Positions 25,670 to 61,557 of a stretch of 64,000 nucleotides of DNA are shown here, piece by piece; positions within the stretch are counted from its first letter, which is position 1; each line of letters opens with the position of its first letter. Where the stretch lies: assembly GCA_949775045.1 (NCBI GenBank), contig OX459097.1:1337598-1401597 (forward strand), read 5' to 3'. This DNA comes from Metridium senile. Its lineage: Eukaryota; Cnidaria; Anthozoa; Actiniaria; Metridiidae. The notes under the pieces were generated by a model, which saw nothing but the letters and a program-made list of their open reading frames with translations, was not told the DNA's origin and did no database searches. The position numbers were made by a program, and so were the translations under genes.

Positions 25670-47313
<21,644 letters not shown>

Positions 47314-47577: not shown

Positions 47578-49233
47578 TCAAAGCCGTGAAGCATGATTAT
47601 CATAATACAGTACATCTCTTTGTCTTCCATTCATAGTTCTCGTCTCGCTAACTGACATGGATCTTGATAACGGCTTTCCCCTTCCTCTACTTACTGCATA
47701 TCGCGAGAAATATAGCTTACGAGTGACGTCAGTTGACGTCATTTGATTGACAGGACTTGATCTGTTCCGACCTGAAATGACGTCATTTCTGGCTTGAAAA
47801 GTTTGCGATCGTTGTAAAGCAGGGGGGTGGTGTGTATTTTCTGGTAGTCTTGGTAGTAGATATGGTAAAGCGATCTTTCTTTTTTGCCGTTTCTTTATAT
47901 CGTGTCGTGTGGGAGGCTCAAAGACGTCATCTTCGCTCTCGTCAATTGTTCCTCTATTTGTCTTGCTTCTATCCAACGTTAATTGATCATTGTGTAGTTT
48001 TTCTATTACTATTTCTCTGTTGTGTTTAACAAGTTGTTGTTTTGCTAAGTATATTCTATTATCATCTTTCCGTCTTGTGTGATTATCTAATAATATAGTT
48101 TCCTCGTAAAGTGGCTGACATCCTAGCGATAAATGTCTTGTTTTCACATTGGCTGAATTACATGCACTAGTTCGCTGTTCTATGAATAACATATTGTCGT
48201 GATGTTCTTGTGTTTCTATTGCTAACAATGCCGGCAATGTCTTGGATCGAGGCCGATTTTTAGCAGCTTCTATTACTGCAGCATCATTCGATGTAGATCT
48301 TTTTCGTCCAAATATAACCGCCACAAAAGCGTCGCGAAATTTCTTGTTGTAGAACGCGTATATTACAGGGTTATAGACAGAGGCCGAAAGACCAACCCAG
48401 AAAGTAATAATTTCTGCTCTTGTAATAAGATTTCCCTCAGGCTTAAAAAGGTAATACTTGTTACAAACAGAAAATGGGGTCCAACTCATGGAGAAAGCGA
48501 CAACTACCGTCAACAGAGATTTCACGATATTAGCTCTCTGTTTGTTAGTAGATTGATGGTTGTTTTTTCTCTGCCATACTGTTTGTACGATTCTAAAATA
48601 CAAGATTGAAACAACAGCTAAAGGAATAGCAAAGCCTAGTGCACCTCTGAACACTAAATAGACGGTTCCAGCAATTGGATGTGATGAGGTTTCTTCGATG
48701 TTACAAAACTGGTACACCTGTCCCTTGTAACTGACATTGACTGTCTCGATTAGAAAAAAAATAGGAGACGTGAGTACAATGGCAAATCCCCAGCTTAATG
48801 CAGCTAACTGCTTAGTGGAGCGAGTTGTTATTATTCTTTTTAGGGGAATACAGATATGAAAATACCTGTCGATAGCCGTAGCAGTCAGTATAGCTACTGA
48901 AGCTGGTGGTAGCATGTACTGTACAAACCGTATAGTCCTACATCCAACTGACCCGAATGTTACAGCTACTGGCTGAGGTCGTGTGCTTAGCAGAGTCAAA
49001 GGTATAGACGCAAAGCACACCAGTAGGTCAGCAAAAGCTAGATTTAACATGAAAAAGTACATTGACGAGTTTGTAAAACGTTTTTTGTATATTACATAAC
49101 ATACGAGGCCATTTCCTGTTACACCAAGAATGAATAATACGCAAGCCACTAAAGTTTCTGCTATCACTTCGTTGTGAGTACGCTCTTGTAGAGGATAAAT
49201 CAAAGTGCTTGTGTTCACCGCTGAACCATTCAT
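47578..49233 (-). CDS. Class A (rhodopsin-family) GPCR, peptide-receptor type, single exon
   Basis: 551 aa from the ATG at 49233; the frame runs further upstream but has no earlier ATG. The N-terminus has NGS and NTS sequons. TM1 carries GN, TM2 LAFADLL, TM3 Cys3.25 and DRY (IDRYFHI), with a second Cys in ECL2 (QFCNIEE). TM5 has its Pro. TM6 reads SWTPF, a variant of CWxP, and TM7 has NPVIY followed by a basic helix-8 start. Position 3.32 is Gln, not Asp, so an amine ligand is unlikely; several peptide receptors have Gln there. There is no retinal-binding Lys in TM7, so it is not an opsin. The C-terminal tail of about 220 residues is long, basic and Ser/Thr-rich. Ligand and subfamily cannot be named. 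Confidence 0.9.
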   Translation of the reverse strand: MNGSAVNTSTLIYPLQERTHNEVIAETLVACVLFILGVTGNGLVCYVIYKKRFTNSSMYFFMLNLAFADLLVCFASIPLTLLSTRPQPVAVTFGSVGCRTIRFVQYMLPPASVAILTATAIDRYFHICIPLKRIITTRSTKQLAALSWGFAIVLTSPIFFLIETVNVSYKGQVYQFCNIEETSSHPIAGTVYLVFRGALGFAIPLAVVSILYFRIVQTVWQRKNNHQSTNKQRANIVKSLLTVVVAFSMSWTPFSVCNKYYLFKPEGNLITRAEIITFWVGLSASVYNPVIYAFYNKKFRDAFVAVIFGRKRSTSNDAAVIEAAKNRPRSKTLPALLAIETQEHHDNMLFIEQRTSACNSANVKTRHLSLGCQPLYEETILLDNHTRRKDDNRIYLAKQQLVKHNREIVIEKLHNDQLTLDRSKTNRGTIDESEDDVFEPPTRHDIKKRQKRKIALPYLLPRLPENTHHPPALQRSQTFQARNDVISGRNRSSPVNQMTSTDVTRKLYFSRYAVSRGRGKPLSRSMSVSETRTMNGRQRDVLYYDNHASRL

Positions 49234-50165
49234 TTTTACGCGAATATATTGACCTTGTTTCTTTCTTTCTTGTGAAGGTATTAACAAGTTGTCATTTCAA
49301 TTTTTGTCTTTCTTTAATCAGCGTTGATTTGTATTGTGCTTCTTCCCATTCTACAGTTGTTTTTCTTTCTATAATCCCTGGTGTTTTCGGTAATTGAATG
49401 CTTTTTGTCTTGTAGTTTATCCCTATTTCTCAATCTTTGGTTTTATCATTAACGGTTAAAAACGAGCTTTACTTGATTCAGAGAGTAATTGGAATCACCA
49501 AGCAACGCTGTCTTTACGTGCAGAATGTCTCAAGGGATCTCTAATTATGATTGACGATAGCTTGCAAAGACTTCACACTTCACACACAGAAAAACCTATT
49601 TAACATTAATCACAACTAAGAGCATTAAATTGGACGGCAATTACTTTTATGAGAACTAACAATCACTATCGTTTTATTGGCTCTCAAGGACTGTAATGAT
49701 TGGTTAAAGGACTCATCTTAGAGATCTACCGTGTGAAAAACTAATGTTAAATTATTCAAATATTTTGTCGAGTTTCATTGTAATCTAAATATTGTCTTTT
49801 CAGCGTTAATTAAAACGAACTATTTCGTATTGTAGATATTGACTTTTTAAAAAGCAAAACACGATTTATCGGATTTATGATCAGTTTTGTCAAAACAGAC
49901 AAAAGAGATTGAGACAATTTTCTCATGTCAAGAGATTAACATCGTTTGAAAATATCCATAATTTATAATACATGTAGATTTCTGAGACAAAAAATATATT
50001 ATAAAGTATGCAGAATATCTTTGTTGTATGAAGCGAAAAATTATGTAAGCTTTCCGGCAAAACAAACTATCTGTTTGGGTGATGTGTAATAATGAAGATA
50101 TCTGCTCTTGTATAAACGCTAGGTAATAGAATTAAATTTGCTCTTTTATATAGCTCAACTGATAA
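49234..50165. other. AT-rich region upstream of the GPCR, no gene seen
   Basis: It would hold the GPCR promoter and 5' UTR, but no convincing motif was found. A short GATATCTG.../CGCTAGGTAATAGAA fragment near 50090-50145 recalls the dispersed repeat at 7836. Confidence 0.4.
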
Positions 50166-50857: not shown

Positions 50858-51171
50858 CATCCAGCCACGAACAACAAAAGCAAAAACAATAAAAATCAAA
50901 CTACAACAAGGGAAACAAGCAATAACACACAGACATTAACACATTCACACACACACACCACACTCCACACTCCACACACAACAAGAACATATAGAGAAAG
51001 CGCCCAAAACGCCGCGAAAACTAAAACAAAACATTTCAATATCTATTTTTCTCGGGTATTTCATCGAAGTTTCTGTTATTGTATTTTTTGTATTTAACGA
51101 TAATTATCAGAATACATCGACATGGTTTCTTTATTTTTCATTTATTCATATTTATAGCTAGGATTAATGTT

Positions 51172-51370
51172 AGTAGTATTCTTGGGATGAAATGACCCCG
51201 GAAATTGAGGTGGGATTGAGGTGGGATTGAGGTGGTGCCATGGTAACCAGGTGACGCGAGAGGATTAGCACCTTGACCAGGAAGTGAGGTATTGCTATGG
51301 TAACCAGGTGACGCCAAAGGCTTAGTGAGCGGGCAAGTTTGGGCAAGTCTTTTGTTATCAATTATAATAT
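51172..51370. repeat. Terminal region of left arm with repeated motif
   Basis: After the tip, (GGGATTGAGGT)n is followed by two copies of ATGGTAACCAGGTGACGC (51239 and 51297). The same layout is inverted at 59455-59653. Several G-to-A/T-to-C type differences separate the two tips here. These may be binding sites for a terminal protein or integrase, or promoter elements for the PC4-like gene 70 bp inward. Confidence 0.6.
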
Positions 51371-51441
51371 ATAGCGCGCGCCTATTTTGAATCTTTCACT
51401 AAAACATTTGAAGGCAAATAGCATTTGGTTAGAGAAAAAAC

Positions 51442-51885
51442 ATGGCAACTTTATTCAAGCTAGGTTCTCGAGGCTACCACGCTACCGTCCAGGAATTCCA
51501 AGGACAGATAAGAGTACATATTCGAAAGTATATTGATGGTGAAGAGAAGAACAAATTTCCAACAAAATATGGCATAGCTTTATCGATTGAAGAATTTGAA
51601 GAGTTATTTAAAGTCATGGGTGATTTGAGCGAAATGGTAGATGTTATGGTAGAGAGTTGTTCTATGACCACACAACCAGGCGATGAGTCAGGATTGCTAA
51701 CAGAGAACGAATATCAACCCCAAGCAAGAGGTTTACAACCAAGCAAGGAAAGTAGAGTGATCGAACAGACTCCAAAACACAGCAAAAGACCACAAGAAAT
51801 GAATCACCTCGCACCGAGAAAACTTTTTAAGAACAATAGACCATCAGCTAGAATGTCACATCAAAACTCTTTCCACTATATCTAG
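51442..51885 (+). CDS. PC4-like ssDNA-binding/coactivator protein, left-arm copy
   Basis: 147 aa from an ATG in a clean context. Residues 5-60 match the PC4/p15 C-terminal fold: FKLGSRGYHATVQEF, VHIRKY and KYGIALSIEEFEEL, as in 'lG.k..vtV.ef.gk..v.iReyy...g...p.kkGIsLt.eqw..L'. The rest is polar, with KRPQEM and basic Lys/Arg stretches. PC4 proteins bind single-stranded and melted DNA; in a mobile element this could serve replication or transcription. An AATAAA lies at 51954-51959. The right-arm copy encodes an identical protein, so the two are either very recent duplicates or kept the same by conversion. Confidence 0.85.
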   Translation: MATLFKLGSRGYHATVQEFQGQIRVHIRKYIDGEEKNKFPTKYGIALSIEEFEELFKVMGDLSEMVDVMVESCSMTTQPGDESGLLTENEYQPQARGLQPSKESRVIEQTPKHSKRPQEMNHLAPRKLFKNNRPSARMSHQNSFHYI

Positions 51886-52237
51886 TTAAACAGTTGTTTA
51901 ATTCGTTAGATAATTATCGTTTATATTTTTGACATGTAAAAAATTGATTTAAAAATAAAAGCTTGTTGAAACAAATGGTTGTGTACATTTTTATTGCCTG
52001 TTATTCAAATCAACTCGTAAATGTTCGATTTAATAAAAAAGGGATTACAATCTTTTATTCGCAAAACAATGGGAAAACGTGTAAGAGATTATAGCTTATT
52101 TGTTTTTCTTTTAAAGTTTCATCAAACTATCAGAGAAGGTTTATAACTTCAAGATGAACCATTCTTATTTATGGTTTCGCTAAACTTCTTTTAGTTCTAA
52201 ACTTTACCTAGTAGATTGTTTCTTTTAACTAGTTATA

Positions 52238-52594
52238 ATGGCAGAATTTAGTATTGATACTTCTGACTGTGAGGATATATCGGTAAGTAAAGTTGTTTAA
52301 ATTATAACTGAGTTGATTTCTTAACTCTCAGTTGTTTTATTTTTCATAATCGTTTTCCTATCAAAGAAGAAAAGTAGTTATAATTTTTGTTTTGTTTTTT
52401 GTTACTAGTTTGGTGAGTTTACTGATTCTCAACTACAAGAACTGGCTTTAGATGAAAACTCATTTGATTTGGATAATTATGTTGACGATGAAATATTATT
52501 GGAAGCCCTTTCAATCACTTCTCAACTAGAAGAACCAAACGTTATCGATGGAAATTGTGAATGGAGCAGCTCTCAACTCCTTGAAGTTCTTTAG
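52238..52594 (+). CDS. Small acidic two-exon protein, left-arm copy
   Basis: Exon 1 52238-52282 and exon 2 52409-52594 join in phase (GT...AG intron of 126 bp) to 76 aa rich in Asp and Glu (e.g. FDLDNYVDDEILLEAL). No family recognised. Directly downstream, 52608-52892 is an open frame of 94 codons after a CTAG acceptor-like site. It is strongly basic (KRKCTEQCNAKRKLREL) and may be a C-terminal exon of a longer splice form. If so, the protein would have an acidic N-terminus and basic C-terminus, like a transcription regulator. Confidence 0.5.
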
Positions 52595-53170
52595 TTATTC
52601 AAACTAGGCAATCGAAGAGCAACCATTCAAGAGAAAATGCACTGAACAATGCAACGCAAAAAGAAAGCTACGCGAATTAAGTAAAAGCAATTATAATTCA
52701 AAGCTATATGCAGCACGAAAAACAACATCTGATGAACTAGCTAATCTGTTTAATGATAAATCAAAACGTTTTACAAGGTTTTGCAAACAACAACTTATTA
52801 TTCAGTGGTCTCTTGTTCAGGTTCAGAGTCAGGCTAACCAAAGAAAGAAAGAATCCCGATTAAAACTTGTGTTTGTAAACATACTTAGTTAGCTAGAGTC
52901 TAGGATTAATTGTTTTGAAACATGAAAATCTCTATAATTAACTAATACATGTAATAGAGAATCGAATCCCCAGAAGAAAAACATTAACAGGAAACCAAGA
53001 TTTATGCTTCAAAGTTTTACAGATATATATATCTAATAACTTATTTTGAATAACTTACAGCCGGCTTAAGAATCATTCGGGATCTTGTTGAATATCTTTT
53101 GTAGAAAAGCGTCAGGATCGAATTCATCACACTGCAAAAGGTCTTGTGTACCAATTGATCATCTCCAATA

Positions 53171-53311
53171 TCACATCTTCTTGGTCCAATTAAATAATTC
53201 AGGCGGAGACCAATAATCAAACTGTAGATTAAGAAAAAGCCGGAGCCCATAAATATGCTTACCACATGCATCTCCAATAAGTTGATAATTAGTAGATAAT
53301 AACTCGGCCAT
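53171..53311 (-). CDS. Short outward-facing ORF, left-arm copy
   Basis: 46 codons from an ATG at 53311. An overlapping frame down to 53041 has a hydrophobic stretch, and further acidic coding-like sequence suggests a small spliced gene whose structure I could not settle. The right arm has the mirror copy at 57514-57654. No family recognised. Confidence 0.3.
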   Translation of the reverse strand: MAELLSTNYQLIGDACGKHIYGLRLFLNLQFDYWSPPELFNWTKKM

Positions 53312-53682
53312 TATGAACAAGAAACAACTGAGTAAAATAATCTTTGCAGTGAAATAATCGCTAATCAGTATCTTTTGGAAGTAATTTATAAGGTTTGTTA
53401 GTACAAAAGATATAAGCATTTCAAAAAGAACCTTATTTCGCGCAACATATTAATTACGTTCAAAAACAAACATGAACACATAAAGTTTATTTTAAGCTCC
53501 AATAATTTTCATGAACACAAAAGATATCAAACAAAGGATTGTTTTTTACGATAAATATAACTTTGAATTATAATTAGTGTATCTTAGCTTAAAATCCATC
53601 AGTAAAAAAAAGTTTTTTATCACGTGGTGTATGTTCAACTCCTCGATAGTCATAGTTATAGTTATAGTTGACAAGCATTAGT

Positions 53683-53811
53683 ATGGATAAAAACATTTTA
53701 AAACTTTCGGAAGAGGAATTGAGAGAAATTCAAGAAAGTTTGCATGGACAGTTTGCTGTTGTTATAACGCACAAGTGTACCTGCATGCATGTTGATCTTA
53801 TTATTGTCTGA
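53683..53811 (+). CDS. Short inward-facing ORF, left-arm copy
   Basis: 42 codons starting MDKNILKLSEEELREI, with a charged N-terminal helix. It may be the first exon of a spliced gene. The mirror copy is at 57014-57142. No family recognised. Confidence 0.3.
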   Translation: MDKNILKLSEEELREIQESLHGQFAVVITHKCTCMHVDLIIV

Positions 53812-54431
53812 TATATAGTTTAACTGAATAACCTTTTTAAAAAAGAACTGTATTCTAGTTAATGGTCAAACACCTATGCTTTATAAACATGGATTCATTT
53901 TAATTCTTCACTTCGCATAATTTACTTCAGTTATGCGTCTAGTTCATATTGAATTTAAATTTATCACAATTAAGTAACAACAAAACGGTTCATATATAGT
54001 TTTATCTCGATTCAAACAAAATATTTAACTACCTACAAAACGTATCATATAAGTCAGTCAAGAAATCAACCAACCTTTCGAAAATCATTATCATAAAATC
54101 TCTGTGCTGCATGTGTGTTTTTATTAGTTATTCAAGCTAAGCTGATTGTTCACACAACTTGCGTAGTATTGTATCGATCGCGACTAGGAAGATAAACAAA
54201 AACAAAAAAATAGAACAACTGATATCTGAATCTTTATTTTCTATCAAAATAAGAATTACATTTATCAATGATAGCAAAGTTTATTCACTAATGGAAATGT
54301 TCATTTGGTTTGTTTATGAAAAAGTGAATAAAACCGCGTTTGTTCTCCTTACAATGGTGATAAAAGCTAAGTATGAATATTACAAAAATCAATTTTGTTA
54401 TTTATTTTGCATGACTATTATTCGTATGTAA

Positions 54432-54848
54432 TTACAATGATTTCAACTCCAACCATTTACGTTTACAGGCATATTTTCTTCTTTTTGTAGATACTTTTGA
54501 GGCTGCTTTATCTCCCTTGCGCTTATTTCTATTCATAGAGTTTTCATTTGTTATTATATATTCATAAGAGTTTCTCTCAATCTCTTCCTGGTGTTTGAGA
54601 AGTCGTGCTAATGATTTTTGTACATTTGGTACATTATCCTCTGTTCCAGTTTCATCATAATTCTTTGAGGGAATGCATACTCCAAGTTTACTCCATTTTA
54701 ACCATTTAGCGCGCTCTTTGATATCCATTCCATGAACTTGATCGAGATGATTTGCTAGTCGAGCAAGGTTAGTGCTTCCACATCCAAATACAGGACAGTT
54801 TCGTCTTGTGCGACCCATGCTGAGCTCTTGACTTGACCAATGTTTCAT
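54432..54848 (-). CDS. C2H2 zinc-finger-like protein, left-arm copy
   Basis: 138 aa. A second Met at residue 11 (MGRTRRNCPVFGCG) may be the true start. One zinc-knuckle-like motif, C-x4-C-x10-H-x4-H, lies at about residues 19-40 (CPVFGC...HLDQVH). It is followed by a Trp-containing basic helix and a Lys/Arg-rich C-terminus (KRKGDKAASKVSTKRRK), which looks like a nuclear localisation or DNA-binding tail. The start faces the GGCCCGAA-rich block and the central gene. The right-arm copy differs at four residues. A role in binding the element's own DNA is an inference. Confidence 0.7.
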   Translation of the reverse strand: MKHWSSQELSMGRTRRNCPVFGCGSTNLARLANHLDQVHGMDIKERAKWLKWSKLGVCIPSKNYDETGTEDNVPNVQKSLARLLKHQEEIERNSYEYIITNENSMNRNKRKGDKAASKVSTKRRKYACKRKWLELKSL

Positions 54849-54884
54849 AGAAAATAATCTCTTTTTGCAATATTACATTTTTAT

Positions 54885-55030
54885 GTATGACGGCCCGAAT
54901 AAGAGGCCCGCGACGGCCCGAATCAACTCGAATCGGCCCGAATCGGCCCGAACTGGCCCGTCAGACCCGAAGGCCCTATAGGCTTTATTTGCTCTCTCGC
55001 TCTCGTTCTGTCTCTTATTCAATTTGGCCC
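54885..55030. repeat. GGCCCGAA iterated motif at the inner end of the left arm
   Basis: GGCCCGAA or close variants (CGGCCCGAAT, AGGCCCGC, AGACCCGAAGG) occur about eight times in 100 bp of CpG-rich DNA within an AT-rich element. A TATAGGCTTTATTTG and a (CTCTCG)n stretch follow. The right arm has the same block at 55821-55945 but with fewer units, so this is where the arms differ most in length. It lies between the divergent zinc-finger and central genes. Confidence 0.65.
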
Positions 55031-55179
55031 GTTCGCGCATGATCATAGAGAAATTTAATTTCTCTTAAAAAAATACGATAACAAGATAACCGGTCCCATA
55101 ATAGAGTATAACCCTCTGCTTATAAGGGAGGTTAGCATCCAAAGCAGAGTCATCCCAAAATAACTCTCAAGAAGATAGC

Positions 55180-55704
55180 ATGTCTCAATCCCACTATGAG
55201 GAAGATGAATCAAGTTCTGATAGCATGGCAAGTAGTGATCAAGAAAGTATTGAGGATAGCAGCGAGGATAGTGTTGACTCAAATCAGTTTGATTCTACTG
55301 AAGATGAGAAAAAGGATGTTTGGGCGAGAATGCAACACAAGGCAATGGAAAGGCATCAGCAAGATTTGGAAGTGGCAATGCAGCAATATAAACAAAACGG
55401 TGATAGTGATGAAGTAGCACAAGCCAAAGCCAATAATGCTTTGTTGCCTACATACAGAAAAGAGCTGAGGGAGGTTCTACACGAACAACTGACATGGATG
55501 CATCATTTGAGAAGAGATCCTACTTATAAAAAGATCATGGCCACAAAGCAAAACCTTATGGATGATAATGACTATAGCTGGGAGGAGGCAACTGAATCAG
55601 CAATACATCAAAGGAAATTTCTACTTAACAAACTATTTGTACAGGAAGAAATTCCAAAACAAAGTATAATCAACTACGCAACTTATAATTCTTATACTCG
55701 TTAG
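55180..55704 (+). CDS. Single-copy acidic protein in the centre of the palindromic element
   Basis: 174 aa, with its own poly(A) signal AATAAA at 55745-55750. Residues 1-50 are Ser/Asp/Glu-rich (EEDESSSDSM, DSTEDEKKD). Residues 48-160 look like a mostly helical domain: WARMQHKAMERH, a segment with NALLPTYRKELREV, HEQLTWMHHLRRDPTYKK and an EEATESAIHQRKFLLNKLF end. I believe I have seen similar proteins of unknown function repeated in other marine invertebrate genomes, but I cannot name the family. As the only single-copy gene of the element it is its best family marker. Confidence 0.7.
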   Translation: MSQSHYEEDESSSDSMASSDQESIEDSSEDSVDSNQFDSTEDEKKDVWARMQHKAMERHQQDLEVAMQQYKQNGDSDEVAQAKANNALLPTYRKELREVLHEQLTWMHHLRRDPTYKKIMATKQNLMDDNDYSWEEATESAIHQRKFLLNKLFVQEEIPKQSIINYATYNSYTR

Positions 55705-55983
55705 CCTTAGATACAAAAAAAATGAAAATAATTTTTTTCGGTTTAATAAAATGAGTTTTTGTTTCATTGAGTTTTTTGTTTTATCTTATTCTACTTTGAT
55801 TAAGCGCAACCGTTGCGGCGGGGCCAAAATGAATAAGAGACAGAAAGAGAGCGAGAGAGCAAATAAAGCCTATAGGGCCTTCGGGCCTGATCGGGCCGAT
55901 TCGGGTTGATTCGGACCGTCGCGGGCCTCTTATTCGGGCCGTCATACATAAAAATGTAATATTGCAAAAAGAGATTATTTTCT

Positions 55984-56400
55984 ATGAAACATTGGTCAAG
56001 TCAAGAGCTCAGCATGGGTCGCACAAGGCGAAACTGTCCTGTATTTGGATGTGGAAGCACTAACCTTGCTCGACTAGCAAATCATCTCGATCAAGTTCAT
56101 CGAATGGATATCGAAGAGCGTGCTAAATGGTTAAAATGGAGTAAACTTGGAGTATGCATTCCCTCAAAGAGTTATGATGAAACTGGAACAGAGGATAATG
56201 TACCAAATGTACAAAAATCATTAGCACGACTTCTCAAACACCAGGAAGAGATGGAGAGGAACTCTTATGAATATATAATAACAAATGAAAACTCTATGAA
56301 TAGAAATAAGCGCAAGGGAGATAAAGCAGCCTCAAAAGTATCTACAAAAAGAAGAAAATATGCATGTAAACGTAAATGGTTGGAGTTGAAATCATTGTAA
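55984..56400 (+). CDS. C2H2 zinc-finger-like protein, right-arm copy
   Basis: 138 aa, intact. It is identical to the left copy except at four residues: G/R in the VHGMD segment, K/E just after it, N/S in the SKNYDE segment and I/M in the EEIERN segment. The cysteines and histidines are unchanged in both copies, so neither looks decayed. Confidence 0.7.
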   Translation: MKHWSSQELSMGRTRRNCPVFGCGSTNLARLANHLDQVHRMDIEERAKWLKWSKLGVCIPSKSYDETGTEDNVPNVQKSLARLLKHQEEMERNSYEYIITNENSMNRNKRKGDKAASKVSTKRRKYACKRKWLELKSL

Positions 56401-57013
56401 TTACATACGAATAATAGTCATGCAAAATAAATAACAAAATTGATTTTTGTAATATTCATACTTAGCTTTTATCACCATTGTAAGGAGAACAAACGCGGTT
56501 TTATTCACTTTTTCATAAACAAACCAAATGAACATTTCCATTAGTGAATAAACTTTGCTATCATTGATAAATGTAATTCTTATTTTGATAGAAAATAAAG
56601 ATTCAGATATCAGTTGTTCTATTATTTTTTTTGTTTATCTTCCTAGTCGCGATCGATACAATACTACGCAAGTTGTGTGAACAATCAGCTTGAATAACTA
56701 ATAAAAACACACATGCAGCACAGAGATTTTATGATAATGATTTTCGAAAGGTTGGTTGATTTCTTGACTGACTTATATGATACCTTTTGTAGGTAGTTAA
56801 ATATTTTGTTTGAATCGAGATAAAACTATATATGAACCGTTTTGTTGTTACTTAATTGTGATAAATTTAAATTCAATATGAACTAGACGCATAACTGAAG
56901 TAAATTATGCGAAGTGAAGAATTAAAATGAATCCATGTTTATAAAGCATAGGTGTTTGACCATTAACTAGAATACAGTTCTTTTTTAAAAAGGTTATTCA
57001 GTTAAACTATATA

Positions 57014-57142
57014 TCAGACAATAATAAGATCAACATGCATGCAGGTACACTTGTGCGTTATAACAACAGCAAACTGTCCATGCAAACTTTCTTGAATTTC
57101 TCTCAATTCCTCTTCCGAAAGTTTTAAAATGTTTTTATCCAT
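57014..57142 (-). CDS. Short inward-facing ORF, right-arm copy
   Basis: Mirror of 53683-53811, at exactly the expected palindromic position. Confidence 0.3.
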   Translation of the reverse strand: MDKNILKLSEEELREIQESLHGQFAVVITHKCTCMHVDLIIV

Positions 57143-57513
57143 ACTAATGCTTGTCAACTATAACTATAACTATGACTATCGAGGAGTTGAACATACACCA
57201 CGTGATAAAAAACTTTTTTTTACTGATGGATTTTAAGCTAAGATACACTAATTATAATTCAAAGTTATATTTATCGTAAAAAACAATCCTTTGTTTGATA
57301 TCTTTTGTGTTCATGAAAATTATTGGAGCTTAAAATAAACTTTATGTGTTCATGTTTGTTTTTGAACGTAATTAATATGTTGCGCGAAATAAGGTTCTTT
57401 TTGAAATGCTTATATCTTTTGTACTAACAAACCTTATAAATTACTTCCAAAAGATACTGATTAGCGATTATTTCACTGCAAAGATTATTTTACTCAGTTG
57501 TTTCTTGTTCATA

Positions 57514-57654
57514 ATGGCCGAGTTATTATCTACTAATTATCAACTTATTGGAGATGCATGTGGTAAGCATATTTATGGGCTCCGGCTTTTTCTTAATCTA
57601 CAGTTTGATTATTGGTCTCCGCCTGAATTATTTAATTGGACCAAGAAGATGTGA
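57514..57654 (+). CDS. Short outward-facing ORF, right-arm copy
   Basis: Mirror of 53171-53311. Downstream, after a TTTTGCAG acceptor-like site at about 57685-57692, a short acidic frame (CDEFDPDAFLQKIF) ends in TAA, which supports a spliced structure. Confidence 0.3.
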   Translation: MAELLSTNYQLIGDACGKHIYGLRLFLNLQFDYWSPPELFNWTKKM

Positions 57655-58230
57655 TATTGGAGATGATCAATTGGTACACAAGACCTTTTGCAGTGTGATG
57701 AATTCGATCCTGACGCTTTTCTACAAAAGATATTCAACAAGATCCCGAATGATTCTTAAGCCGGCTGTAAGTTATTCAAAATAAGTTATTAGATATATAT
57801 ATCTGTAAAACTTTGAAGCATAAATCTTGGTTTCCTGTTAATGTTTTTCTTCTGGGGATTCGATTCTCTATTACATGTATTAGTTAATTATAGAGATTTT
57901 CATGTTTCAAAACAATTAATCCTAGACTCTAGCTAACTAAGTATGTTTACAAACACAAGTTTTAATCGGGATTCTTTCTTTCTTTGGTTAGCCTGACTCT
58001 GAACCTGAACAAGAGACCACTGAATAATAAGTTGTTGTTTGCAAAACCTTGTAAAACGTTTTGATTTATCATTAAACAGATTAGCTAGTTCATCAGATGT
58101 TGTTTTTCGTGCTGCATATAGCTTTGAATTATAATTGCTTTTACTTAATTCGCGTAGCTTTCTTTTTGCGTTGCATTGTTCAGTGCATTTTCTCTTGAAT
58201 GGTTGCTCTTCGATTGCCTAGTTTGAATAA

Positions 58231-58587
58231 CTAAAGAACTTCAAGGAGTTGAGAGCTGCTCCATTCACAATTTCCATCGATAACGTTTGGTTCTTCTAGT
58301 TGAGAAGTGATTGAAAGGGCTTCCAATAATATTTCATCGTCAACATAATTATCCAAATCAAATGAGTTTTCATCTAAAGCCAGTTCTTGTAGTTGAGAAT
58401 CAGTAAACTCACCAAACTAGTAACAAAAAACAAAACAAAAATTATAACTACTTTTCTTCTTTGATAGGAAAACGATTATGAAAAATAAAACAACTGAGAG
58501 TTAAGAAATCAACTCAGTTATAATTTAAACAACTTTACTTACCGATATATCCTCACAGTCAGAAGTATCAATACTAAATTCTGCCAT
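58231..58587 (-). CDS. Small acidic two-exon protein, right-arm copy
   Basis: Exons 58587-58543 and 58416-58231 mirror the left copy, splice sites included. The basic downstream frame mirrors at 58217-57933. Confidence 0.5.
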
Positions 58588-58939
58588 TATAACTAGTTAA
58601 AAGAAACAATCTACTAGGTAAAGTTTAGAACTAAAAGAAGTTTAGCGAAACCATAAATAAGAATGGTTCATCTTGAAGTTATAAACCTTCTCTGATAGTT
58701 TGATGAAACTTTAAAAGAAAAACAAATAAGCTATAATCTCTTACACGTTTTCCCATTGTTTTGCGAATAAAAGATTGTAATCCCTTTTTTATTAAATCGA
58801 ACATTTACGAGTTGATTTGAATAACAGGCAATAAAAATGTACACAACCATTTGTTTCAACAAGCTTTTATTTTTAAATCAATTTTTTACATGTCAAAAAT
58901 ATAAACGATAATTATCTAACGAATTAAACAACTGTTTAA

Positions 58940-59383
58940 CTAGATATAGTGGAAAGAGTTTTGATGTGACATTCTAGCTGATGGTCTATTGTTCTTAAAA
59001 AGTTTTCTCGGTGCGAGGTGATTCATTTCTTGTGGTCTTTTGCTGTGTTTTGGAGTCTGTTCGATCACTCTACTTTCCTTGCTTGGTTGTAAACCTCTTG
59101 CTTGGGGTTGATATTCGTTCTCTGTTAGCAATCCTGACTCATCGCCTGGTTGTGTGGTCATAGAACAACTCTCTACCATAACATCTACCATTTCGCTCAA
59201 ATCACCCATGACTTTAAATAACTCTTCAAATTCTTCAATCGATAAAGCTATGCCATATTTTGTTGGAAATTTGTTCTTCTCTTCACCATCAATATACTTT
59301 CGAATATGTACTCTTATCTGTCCTTGGAATTCCTGGACGGTAGCGTGGTAGCCTCGAGAACCTAGCTTGAATAAAGTTGCCAT
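58940..59383 (-). CDS. PC4-like ssDNA-binding/coactivator protein, right-arm copy
   Basis: 147 aa with the same protein sequence as the left copy. Its ATG lies 270 bp from the right tip of the element, as in the left arm. Confidence 0.85.
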   Translation of the reverse strand: MATLFKLGSRGYHATVQEFQGQIRVHIRKYIDGEEKNKFPTKYGIALSIEEFEELFKVMGDLSEMVDVMVESCSMTTQPGDESGLLTENEYQPQARGLQPSKESRVIEQTPKHSKRPQEMNHLAPRKLFKNNRPSARMSHQNSFHYI

Positions 59384-59659
59384 GTTTTTTCTCTAACCAA
59401 ATGCTATTTGCCTTCAAATGTTTTAGTGAAAGATTCAAAATAGGCGCGCGCTATATATTATAATTGATAACAAAAGACTTGCCCAAACTTGCCCGCTCAC
59501 TAAGCCTTTGGCGTCACCTGGTTACCATAGCAACACTTCACTTCCTGGTCAAGGTGCTAATCCTCTCGCGTCACCTGGTTACCATGGCACCGCCTCAATC
59601 CTACCTCAATCCCGCCTCAATTTCCGGGGTCATTTCATCCCAAGAATACTACTAATGTT

Positions 59660-60030
59660 TAATTAGTTCACACACGCCGGAGACTGACAACTTCCCTTTG
59701 TCTGTGATAGTATTTGAACAGAGTCCATTCATTAACTACAACCTGTAAATAGTGGTAGGAAAACATCACATAAACACGAAAATGAGCAGAGAAGAAATAG
59801 ATGGAAGGAAGGAAGGGAGGAAGATAAACGGATGAAAATGAAAGATGATGTCGAAACGTTGTATCCTTGCGTTTGTCTTCATTCTCAATTTTATAACAAA
59901 GTCTAAACTTATTAAAATGAAAGAAGGAATGACTTAATGAGTGGATAAAAAACGAATCTATAGATGAAAGAAAAAAAAGCGATGAGAAACTAGTAAGTGC
60001 CTGGTCCTGCCTGCGGTCAATGTGGGACAA
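59660..60030. other. Right flank of the palindromic element, no gene seen
   Basis: Purine-rich (GGAAGGAAGG near 59810) and otherwise unremarkable. Confidence 0.4.
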
Positions 60031-60485: not shown

Positions 60486-61415
60486 TCATCTCTCTTCTTC
60501 TGTATGCCAAAATGTTGTCTCTATTCGATGTACAACAGATCCAAAAACCTTCCTAATCTCCCTTCTAATATCTCCTTTCACAAGGGCATACACAGCAAAG
60601 TCTAGTGCTGAGTTAATGTAGTAAAGTAGTCTTGATAAAGGAACAATTATATCAGGTACATCAATAAATAAAACATACGTACAAAATGCCCTGTAAAACG
60701 TTAATGAATAACATAGCACGAAGAACATCACCATAAAACCAATAAAATGAACCGATGACCGCTGTACGCTCAGACGGCTCGCGCTGCTAGAATAGTTGTA
60801 CTTTACTTGTCGCCTTTGTTGGGTAATTTTTCTTCGCTGTGCTTTCGATATTCGTAGCATTACAAGGTATACACCAACCAGGCAAATCATCGGTAACAGC
60901 TGGCATAAAAACAACCTTATAGTACTGATAATACGGTATGCATGAAGGTTATTGGACTGGATAATCACGTAGAATACAAAGGGCGTTGCTATTGACAACA
61001 CCCACGTGATAACCAAGATCACCGCGCATGTGCAAGTAGTTAGGATAAGGTAGTATTTAAACGAGCAACGTACAGCGATATAGCGGTCTAATGTAATAGC
61101 ACACAGGTTTAATACAGATCCAAGTAGGAAGATATCTTTGATTGTTTGAACCAGCCACATGTCACATGACACTAAGATTGTACATATAAACTCCATGGGT
61201 GTATTAATGACACCAGTACATAGGTCAGCGGTACATAACGATAGTACAAAACAGTTTTGTTGTGTCCACAGTCGACGTGTTGATACGATGATATAGATAA
61301 TTAAGGCATTACCAATAGTGGCAATAAAGGCAATAATTCCCCTTAAACACCAGTACCATATAGCATCGGGGTGACCGGCATAGGTGAACGAATCACGTGA
61401 CCCGTTAGTCAACAT
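60486..61415 (-). CDS. Class A-like orphan GPCR with non-canonical motifs, single exon
   Basis: 309 aa from the ATG at 61415, with one NGS sequon. Seven hydrophobic segments are clear: GN in TM1, LSLCTADL in TM2, LDRYIAV at the end of TM3, Trp in TM4, a Pro in TM5. Several hallmarks are missing. ECL2 has no Cys to pair with the TM3 Cys, and that Cys sits two residues off the usual spacing. TM6 lacks CWxP. TM7 has DFAVY in place of NPxxY. A short basic helix 8 ends the protein. Such receptors form lineage-specific expansions in cnidarians, as far as I recall. The ligand is unknown. It shares no close similarity with the GPCR at 47578. Confidence 0.85.
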   Translation of the reverse strand: MLTNGSRDSFTYAGHPDAIWYWCLRGIIAFIATIGNALIIYIIVSTRRLWTQQNCFVLSLCTADLCTGVINTPMEFICTILVSCDMWLVQTIKDIFLLGSVLNLCAITLDRYIAVRCSFKYYLILTTCTCAVILVITWVLSIATPFVFYVIIQSNNLHAYRIISTIRLFLCQLLPMICLVGVYLVMLRISKAQRRKITQQRRQVKYNYSSSASRLSVQRSSVHFIGFMVMFFVLCYSLTFYRAFCTYVLFIDVPDIIVPLSRLLYYINSALDFAVYALVKGDIRREIRKVFGSVVHRIETTFWHTEEER

Positions 61416-61557
61416 AGCTGGTTATGTACTAAAGTACTAAAAGTCTTTCTATATAGTCGCTAGGCAGATCTTTGAAGTGTTGCAAGTTAACGCGCGAAAA
61501 TACAGCTGCTAAACGCTGCTTGCACAATGAAGCAATGAAGTTTAAACAGCTTCCGAT

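Follow-up and report, generated by a model that had tools for sequence, protein, structure and literature searches.

An element of 8482 bp occupies positions 51172 to 59653 of a 64-kb stretch of the Metridium senile genome (contig OX459097.1; the whole stretch is called the window here, and coordinates without a prefix refer to it). A first-pass annotation made from the sequence alone had described an exactly bounded element with AATGTT on both sides and perfect inverted tips, and these boundaries were confirmed to the base. The tips, AGTAGTATTCTTGGG, form a perfect inverted repeat, the ends read AGTAGT...ACTACT, which is the (AGT)2//(ACT)2 type, within terminal inverted repeats (TIRs), and the arms, estimated earlier at about 3.84 kb each, measure 3859 and 3833 bp and are 98.8% identical. 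We read the element as a non-autonomous but gene-bearing satellite of Polinton/Maverick elements (with a probability of roughly 0.87) that, judging by its sequence, most likely lives as a parasite of a full-size Polinton with the same ends, referred to below as the helper. Its features, with the basis for each in brackets, are as follows.

51166-51171, no strand: left target-site duplication AATGTT (sequence read)
51172-51380, plus strand: 209-bp left terminal segment, the Polinton's own TIR, common to both ends of the ~17-kb Polinton (match to helper left and right ends)
51172-52588, plus strand: outer arm segment of 1417 bp matching the Polinton left end, with TIR, PC4 gene and start of the acidic gene (~97% identity over the first 1389 bp, 28 gap columns)
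51442-51885, plus strand: PC4-domain protein, 147 aa (PF02229, E 1.5e-9, above cut-off)
52238-52594, plus strand: two-exon acidic gene (52238-52282 and 52409-52594), a truncated relative of a 241-aa Polinton frame (splice sites predicted by eye)
52608-52892, plus strand: basic 94-aa open frame, possibly an alternative exon (sequence)
54432-54848, minus strand: C2H2-like zinc-finger protein, 138 aa, left copy (zinc-finger pattern by eye)
54901-54916, minus strand: conserved DNA motif CCGTCGCGGGCCTCTT, 5' of the zinc-finger gene (sequence read)
55180-55704, plus strand: single-copy central gene, 174 aa, with an acidic N-terminus and a helical C-terminal part (22 homologues)
55916-55931, plus strand: mirror copy of the motif (sequence read)
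55984-56400, plus strand: C2H2-like zinc-finger protein, 138 aa, right copy (zinc-finger pattern by eye)
57936-58217, minus strand: mirror copy of the basic frame (arm comparison)
58231-58587, minus strand: mirror copy of the two-exon acidic gene (arm comparison)
58237-59653, minus strand: right-arm mirror of the Polinton left end (sequence comparison)
58940-59383, minus strand: second, identical copy of the PC4-domain protein (translation comparison)
59445-59653, minus strand: 209-bp right terminal segment, the same TIR (match to helper ends)
59654-59659, no strand: right target-site duplication AATGTT (sequence read)

The arms had been said to carry intact genes twice. This holds for the PC4 gene, whose two proteins are identical, and for the zinc-finger gene, whose proteins differ at 4 of 138 residues between arms; the third gene, with two exons, is instead a truncated relative of a Polinton gene. 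No transposase, integrase, protease, ATPase or capsid match was obtained when 12 frames of the element were searched against Pfam, and the longest open frame is 192 aa. A Dada-type or other DDE transposon, a possibility raised by the first-pass annotation, was rejected on these grounds, as the searched frames include no transposase of the element's own. Host gene capture alone was also considered and set aside. In PHROGs, the PC4 protein matched a transcription regulator (4.8e-4) and one helper frame an endonuclease (6.5e-5), with nothing better than 0.03 for the other frames tested, and an Rfam search of 51000-59900 gave no match. The IMG/VR viral contigs yielded no relatives of the central, PC4 or zinc-finger proteins by alignment. 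The 15-base tip has 54 exact matches in these contigs, which we attribute to chance because none of the 54 contigs carries an element protein (E up to 1) or a DNA match beside it.

To place the element within its genome, we searched the assembly (389 Mb in 169 contigs) with a 231-bp tip query. At least 40 matches (40 of 52 candidates scored) resolve into 19 convergent pairs and two singles. By length, the pairs comprise one of 4.6 kb, two of 6.2 kb, four of 7.33 kb, seven of 8.4-8.5 kb (the window element included) and five of 16.4-17.9 kb. We call these pairs the W family. Fifteen of them hold the central gene and have no match to the capsid gene (MCP), and the other four (16.9-17.9 kb) hold MCP and have no match to the central gene. 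Fourteen short elements were read (the window element and loci L063-L075), and 13 of them are flanked by direct repeats of at least 6 bp, all different, the length being ambiguous in L073, which lies in an ATT-repeat site. Of the four 7326-bp copies, three are identical and one is two substitutions away; each is on a separate contig (16-66 Mb) and has a different duplication. Insertion of the short elements is thus recent and repeated, and these near-identical copies count against a single misassembly. The check for further copies with the same tips, proposed with the original description, has accordingly added 13 gene-carrying insertions. The fifth long pair (C3:23538603-23554954) was a candidate helper by size and was rejected because the central gene is present in it; it is a satellite enlarged by an insertion. 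At this locus (L085:1859-7879, C3:23538540-), a 2007-aa open frame, which we take for a retroelement by its size and look, is inserted in a satellite copy that retains its TAGAAT duplication.

The remaining four of the five long same-tip pairs (16.9-17.9 kb) contain a capsid gene, found with the capsid protein of L080, and one of them was read closely in two pieces (L079/L080). Its left end carries the PC4 gene and the acidic gene, and a 99% identical PC4 protein is found at the left end of the Polinton pieces L076, L077, L079, L082 and L083. The helper further encodes an integrase (RVE, 3.9e-9, and chromodomain, 2.7e-10, both above cut-off), which by sequence matches chromodomains and foamy-virus integrase in the PDB, and an adenain-type protease (PF00770, 8.7e-5, above cut-off). 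An A32-like ATPase (PF04665, 2.4e-4) falls just below the cut-off, as does, further down, a double-jelly-roll capsid protein (PF21738, 0.0015). Its PolB exons share 67-75% identity with frames of a related element, L093, and one of those frames hits DNA_pol_B_2 (PF03175) at 1.8e-8; a W-family polymerase exon matches the L094 polymerase by blastp at E 0.016 only. Another helper frame, of 275 aa (L080:107-931), has a weak match to the LRR N-terminal domain (PF01462, E 0.0078, below cut-off) and, by eye, a stretch resembling a membrane anchor. The ~17-kb same-tip element is a Polinton/Maverick. Passages of PMC8097293 give (AGT)2//(ACT)2 ends and 6-bp duplications as Maverick marks, and passages of PMC4028283 list RVE integrase, cysteine protease, packaging ATPase and capsid proteins in the Polinton gene set. 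The earlier suspicion that the window element bears Polinton/Maverick marks (AG ends, 6-bp duplication) without the core genes is therefore supported, and the longer same-tip relatives that it called for, encoding polymerase, integrase or ATPase, are present in the same genome. In two of the four helper-type pairs a 6-bp duplication is visible by eye (TTTAGT in L079/L080, ATCAAC in L083/L084). The left-end pieces of five helper copies are 99.1-99.9% alike over 8 kb, so the helper, too, has recently been active. Across the genome, 108 capsid-protein matches range from 100% down to ~20% identity, representing several Polinton families with many frames open, and some lie near unpaired satellite-type tips.

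The two types of element have their ends in common and differ in their contents. Thirteen helper-type frames, those of the protein-primed PolB included, were searched by tblastn against 18 short elements (the window element and 17 others) and gave no match at E 1e-3 (the control produced matches in L080/L093). Conversely, the inner core of the satellite (basic frame, zinc finger and central gene) has no match in the capsid-bearing Polinton pieces read. The basic frame has no Pfam match either, and the zinc-finger protein, which has 91 homologues, has no Pfam zinc-finger match. We found 22 homologues of the central protein, 18 of them on contigs of up to 2.6 kb and one named Exaiptasia diaphana, and 12 of the PC4 protein, one identical and seven on contigs of up to 2.9 kb. 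The identical one (P0023) sits on a 1089-base contig, perhaps a transcript. For the central gene, dN/dS is 0.16-0.42 in the six computable comparisons (dS being about 1 or more in five), and four comparisons with L092 are saturated. The zinc-finger gene gave 0.26-0.55 in six comparisons (dS above 1 in five), and the PC4 gene, compared between the window element and the helper, 0.08 on four differences. Judging by these substitution patterns, purifying selection seems to act on the inner genes (zinc finger and central helical protein), which are also found again in other palindromic families.

The central protein has at least 153 matches in its own genome (150 of 286 candidates scored), many of them open frames, which group at ~97-100, 87-93, 62, 55 and 37-41% identity. 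One copy was read from each of four further groups (L089, L090, L091 and L092), and all four are palindromes with a central homologue, arms of ~2.4-3.1 kb and exact 6-bp duplications (GCGGAG, AGTGAA, CACCCC and GCTATC). Their tips begin with AGTAGT in three cases and with ACTACT in L091. In L089 and L090 the arms are only 24 bp apart, so that the central gene is doubled too, while in L092 the zinc finger is fused to the central protein and there is a PC4-like frame (E 0.025, below cut-off). Searches with the W, L090, L091 and L092 tips gave 62 tip pairs in all. Among the matches listed, 30 pairs hold the central gene (W 15, L090 5, L091 8, L092 2), 11 hold the capsid gene (W 4, L090 1, L091 5, L092 1) and none holds both. 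All four tips tested thus also bracket MCP-bearing elements, which for the L090-L092 tips are 10-18 kb long, and of one long-pair slice per L090, L091 and L092 family, all three hold a polymerase above the Pfam cut-off, two an integrase and one an A32-like ATPase. Of 92 loci, 54 of them unrelated viral contigs, 16 contain the motif CCGTCGCGGGCCTCTT, and all 16 are satellites. These belong to three families (W, L089 and L090), with none in L091 or L092, and in L089 and L090 the motif lies at the palindrome centre. Short repeats of the GGCCCGAA type stand beside the zinc-finger genes of the window element (54885-54966 and 55878-55945).

These comparisons bear on two other explanations. The element could be a plain internal-deletion, MITE-like derivative of a Polinton, its genes being accidental cargo. 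The ends and the PC4/acidic-gene end that it has in common with the Polinton would fit such an origin, as would the short/short and internally shortened copies (L063, L067 and L075). However, the inner genes have no counterpart in the capsid-bearing pieces read, the central gene matches none of the 11 MCP-bearing pairs among the matches listed and has a dN/dS of 0.16-0.42 (with high dS in five of six comparisons), and palindromes with other tips contain further relatives of it, 93 down to 37% identical. We therefore regard a MITE-like origin as unlikely. Alternatively, an independent lineage of small DNA viruses or transposons, with an unrecognised replication system, could have merely captured Polinton ends. 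The inner cores of L089 and the window element are 87-88% alike in DNA and their tips and outer genes do not match, so the core appears to move between ends, and the model of the central protein (mean pLDDT 68, four helices) has no fold match in a Foldseek search of the PDB (best E 3.7). This explanation is nevertheless very unlikely, given that no frame is of enzyme size (the longest are 192 aa in the window element, 261 aa in L091 and 215 aa in L092) and that every one of the four tested tips also encloses capsid-bearing elements. Under the preferred reading as a Polinton satellite, alike cores with unlike ends fit helper switching by exchange of ends, as inferred from this one pair.

How the palindrome is built was examined by comparing element ends with helper ends, five of the left and three of the right type. 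The two ends of the helper Polinton have only 209-210 bp in common. Beyond this common repeat, the 14 short elements have ends of the helper left type throughout (28 of 28, none of the right type), the match to the helper left end continuing for 74 bp past the repeat in "short" ends and reaching to 1389-1417 bp in "long" ends. Three combinations surround the same core: long/long (window element, L069-L074), long/short (L064, L065, L066 and L068) and short/short (L063, L075 and the shortened L067). Within elements, the arms differ at 0-3 sites in five of seven cases (L070-L074), at 15 in the window element and at 16 in L069; between elements, they differ at 0-4 sites within close groups (L071/L072/L074, and the left arm of L069 with L070), at 9-16 in a few mixed pairs and otherwise at 18-50. 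L069 consists of an L070-like arm joined to an arm nine sites from that of L073. Over long stretches both arms thus belong to one lineage, and the elements recombine. Some arm differences are common to separate insertions (window element, L069 and L070, and also L071 and L072), which shows that in those lineages the full palindrome was copied rather than a half. A half-length hairpin in every cycle was dropped for this reason.

In the window element the arms differ by 19 substitutions plus indels. Five substitutions lie within the outer 122 bp, none within the following 2749 bp, and 14, together with all indels, within the inner ~990 bp. If the 19 substitutions were evenly spread, the chance of a clear stretch of 2749 bp there would be 4e-11, the stretch having been picked post hoc. 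Such a stretch points to gene conversion between the arms, which is likely although not the only reading, or else to smoothing by the assembler. An identical run of this length is indeed what a polisher might produce if the palindrome were a fold-back chimera of the assembly. Yet the same architecture recurs at other loci with different target duplications, the arms of the window element differ at both ends, and palindromes were found in the one copy read of each of four other families. An artefact, which the first-pass annotation had raised, is hardly credible.

A scheme in keeping with these observations would run as follows. The protein-primed polymerase of the Polinton would copy the satellite from the common terminal repeats, and the Polinton integrase would insert the copy. 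At the origin of the palindrome, a replicating strand may have switched to the opposite strand (snap-back), so that a second left end took the place of one of the original ends; having left ends on both sides is expected if the copied strand switches to its complement. Thereafter, conversion of one arm by the other, together with recombination among elements, would maintain the likeness of the arms and allow ends to be swapped. The probable targets of the zinc-finger and central proteins are element DNA or Polinton expression; they could act at the CCGTCGCGGGCCTCTT motif, which lies on the 5' side of the zinc-finger gene or in the middle of the palindrome. The satellite might also ride in Polinton capsids. 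In adenoviruses the packaging signals lie at the left end, and if the same applied here, two left ends would be advantageous. More speculatively, and on balance doubtfully, there could be a whole class of palindromic animal DNA satellites with conserved genes of their own, in which each lineage wears the ends of one Polinton lineage and switches helper by end swap, and which are packaged in Polinton capsids and restrain the Polinton as virophages do giant viruses.

Several points weigh against the satellite reading or parts of it. The dependence on the Polinton is argued from shared ends and missing enzymes, and since the Polinton is the source of the PC4 gene, satellite specificity is confined to the inner genes. 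Considered alone, the W-family PolB exons have no Pfam match (searched on the near-identical L076) and no PDB match. Two of the four helper-type pairs lack a duplication, as does one of the 14 short elements (L070). MCP is broken in one W-family pair and in the only long L090-family pair, where it is in pieces. Furthermore, 21 of the 62 tip pairs hold neither the central nor the capsid gene among the matches listed (W 0, L090 3, L091 4, L092 14), which weakens the census above all for L092. Snap-back is an origin story and not a routine cycle, and the likeness of arms is weak proof of conversion, because close copies in different elements are equally alike (0-4 sites).

Each arm also contains, at 53041-53590 (mirror at ~57236-57785), an apparent decayed and inverted second copy of the region of the acidic gene and basic frame (48-bp stretches 75% alike), perhaps a trace of an older inversion. 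The element sits between two intronless frames that by eye resemble rhodopsin-type receptors (47578-49296 and 60486-61421). Farther upstream, exon-like frames interrupted by simple repeats (40702-41205 and 44232-44843) are reminiscent of a SYF1/XAB2-type pre-mRNA splicing factor.

Non-autonomous transposons and satellite viruses are both known kinds of element. Compared with Polintons/Mavericks (adintovirus-like, 15-20 kb), the satellite has the same 6-bp duplication, (AGT)2//(ACT)2 ends, terminal repeats and the PC4 gene of the local Polinton, whereas polymerase, integrase, ATPase, protease and capsid genes were not found in it, and it is a palindrome with two left ends, of 4.6-8.5 kb in the W family. 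Symmetric defective adenovirus genomes with a duplicated left end are linear and protein-primed, one end being a mirror copy of the other. They offer a parallel for the gain of a second left end by mirror duplication, but the satellite is integrated, multi-copy and has its own genes. Foldback or long-TIR transposons (FB, Galileo) likewise have very long inverted repeats, but differ in duplication length and enzymes and lack Polinton ends. Transpovirons and virophages, the satellites of giant viruses, are similarly small gene-bearing DNAs that depend on a larger DNA virus, whereas the helper here is a Polinton in an animal genome and the element is palindromic (gene homology having been compared by Pfam and PHROGs only). 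For transpovirons, passages of PMC7031253 suggest that helper preference may stem from differences in the terminal and central repeats. Gene-bearing palindromic Polinton satellites are not described in the titles and abstract openings of the literature searched (which covers few subscription papers and excludes Repbase and Dfam), and the portions consulted of PMC11071296 and PMC12220107 do not mention palindromic satellites.

Polintons are regarded as virus-like, and these satellites bear on whether they behave as viruses in animals: satellites that live off Polintons and have selected genes of their own are what would be expected of active replicons. They also provide a small natural substrate for testing copying, insertion and packaging by PolB and integrase, and their recurrent palindromes may document how strands switch during protein-primed replication in nature.

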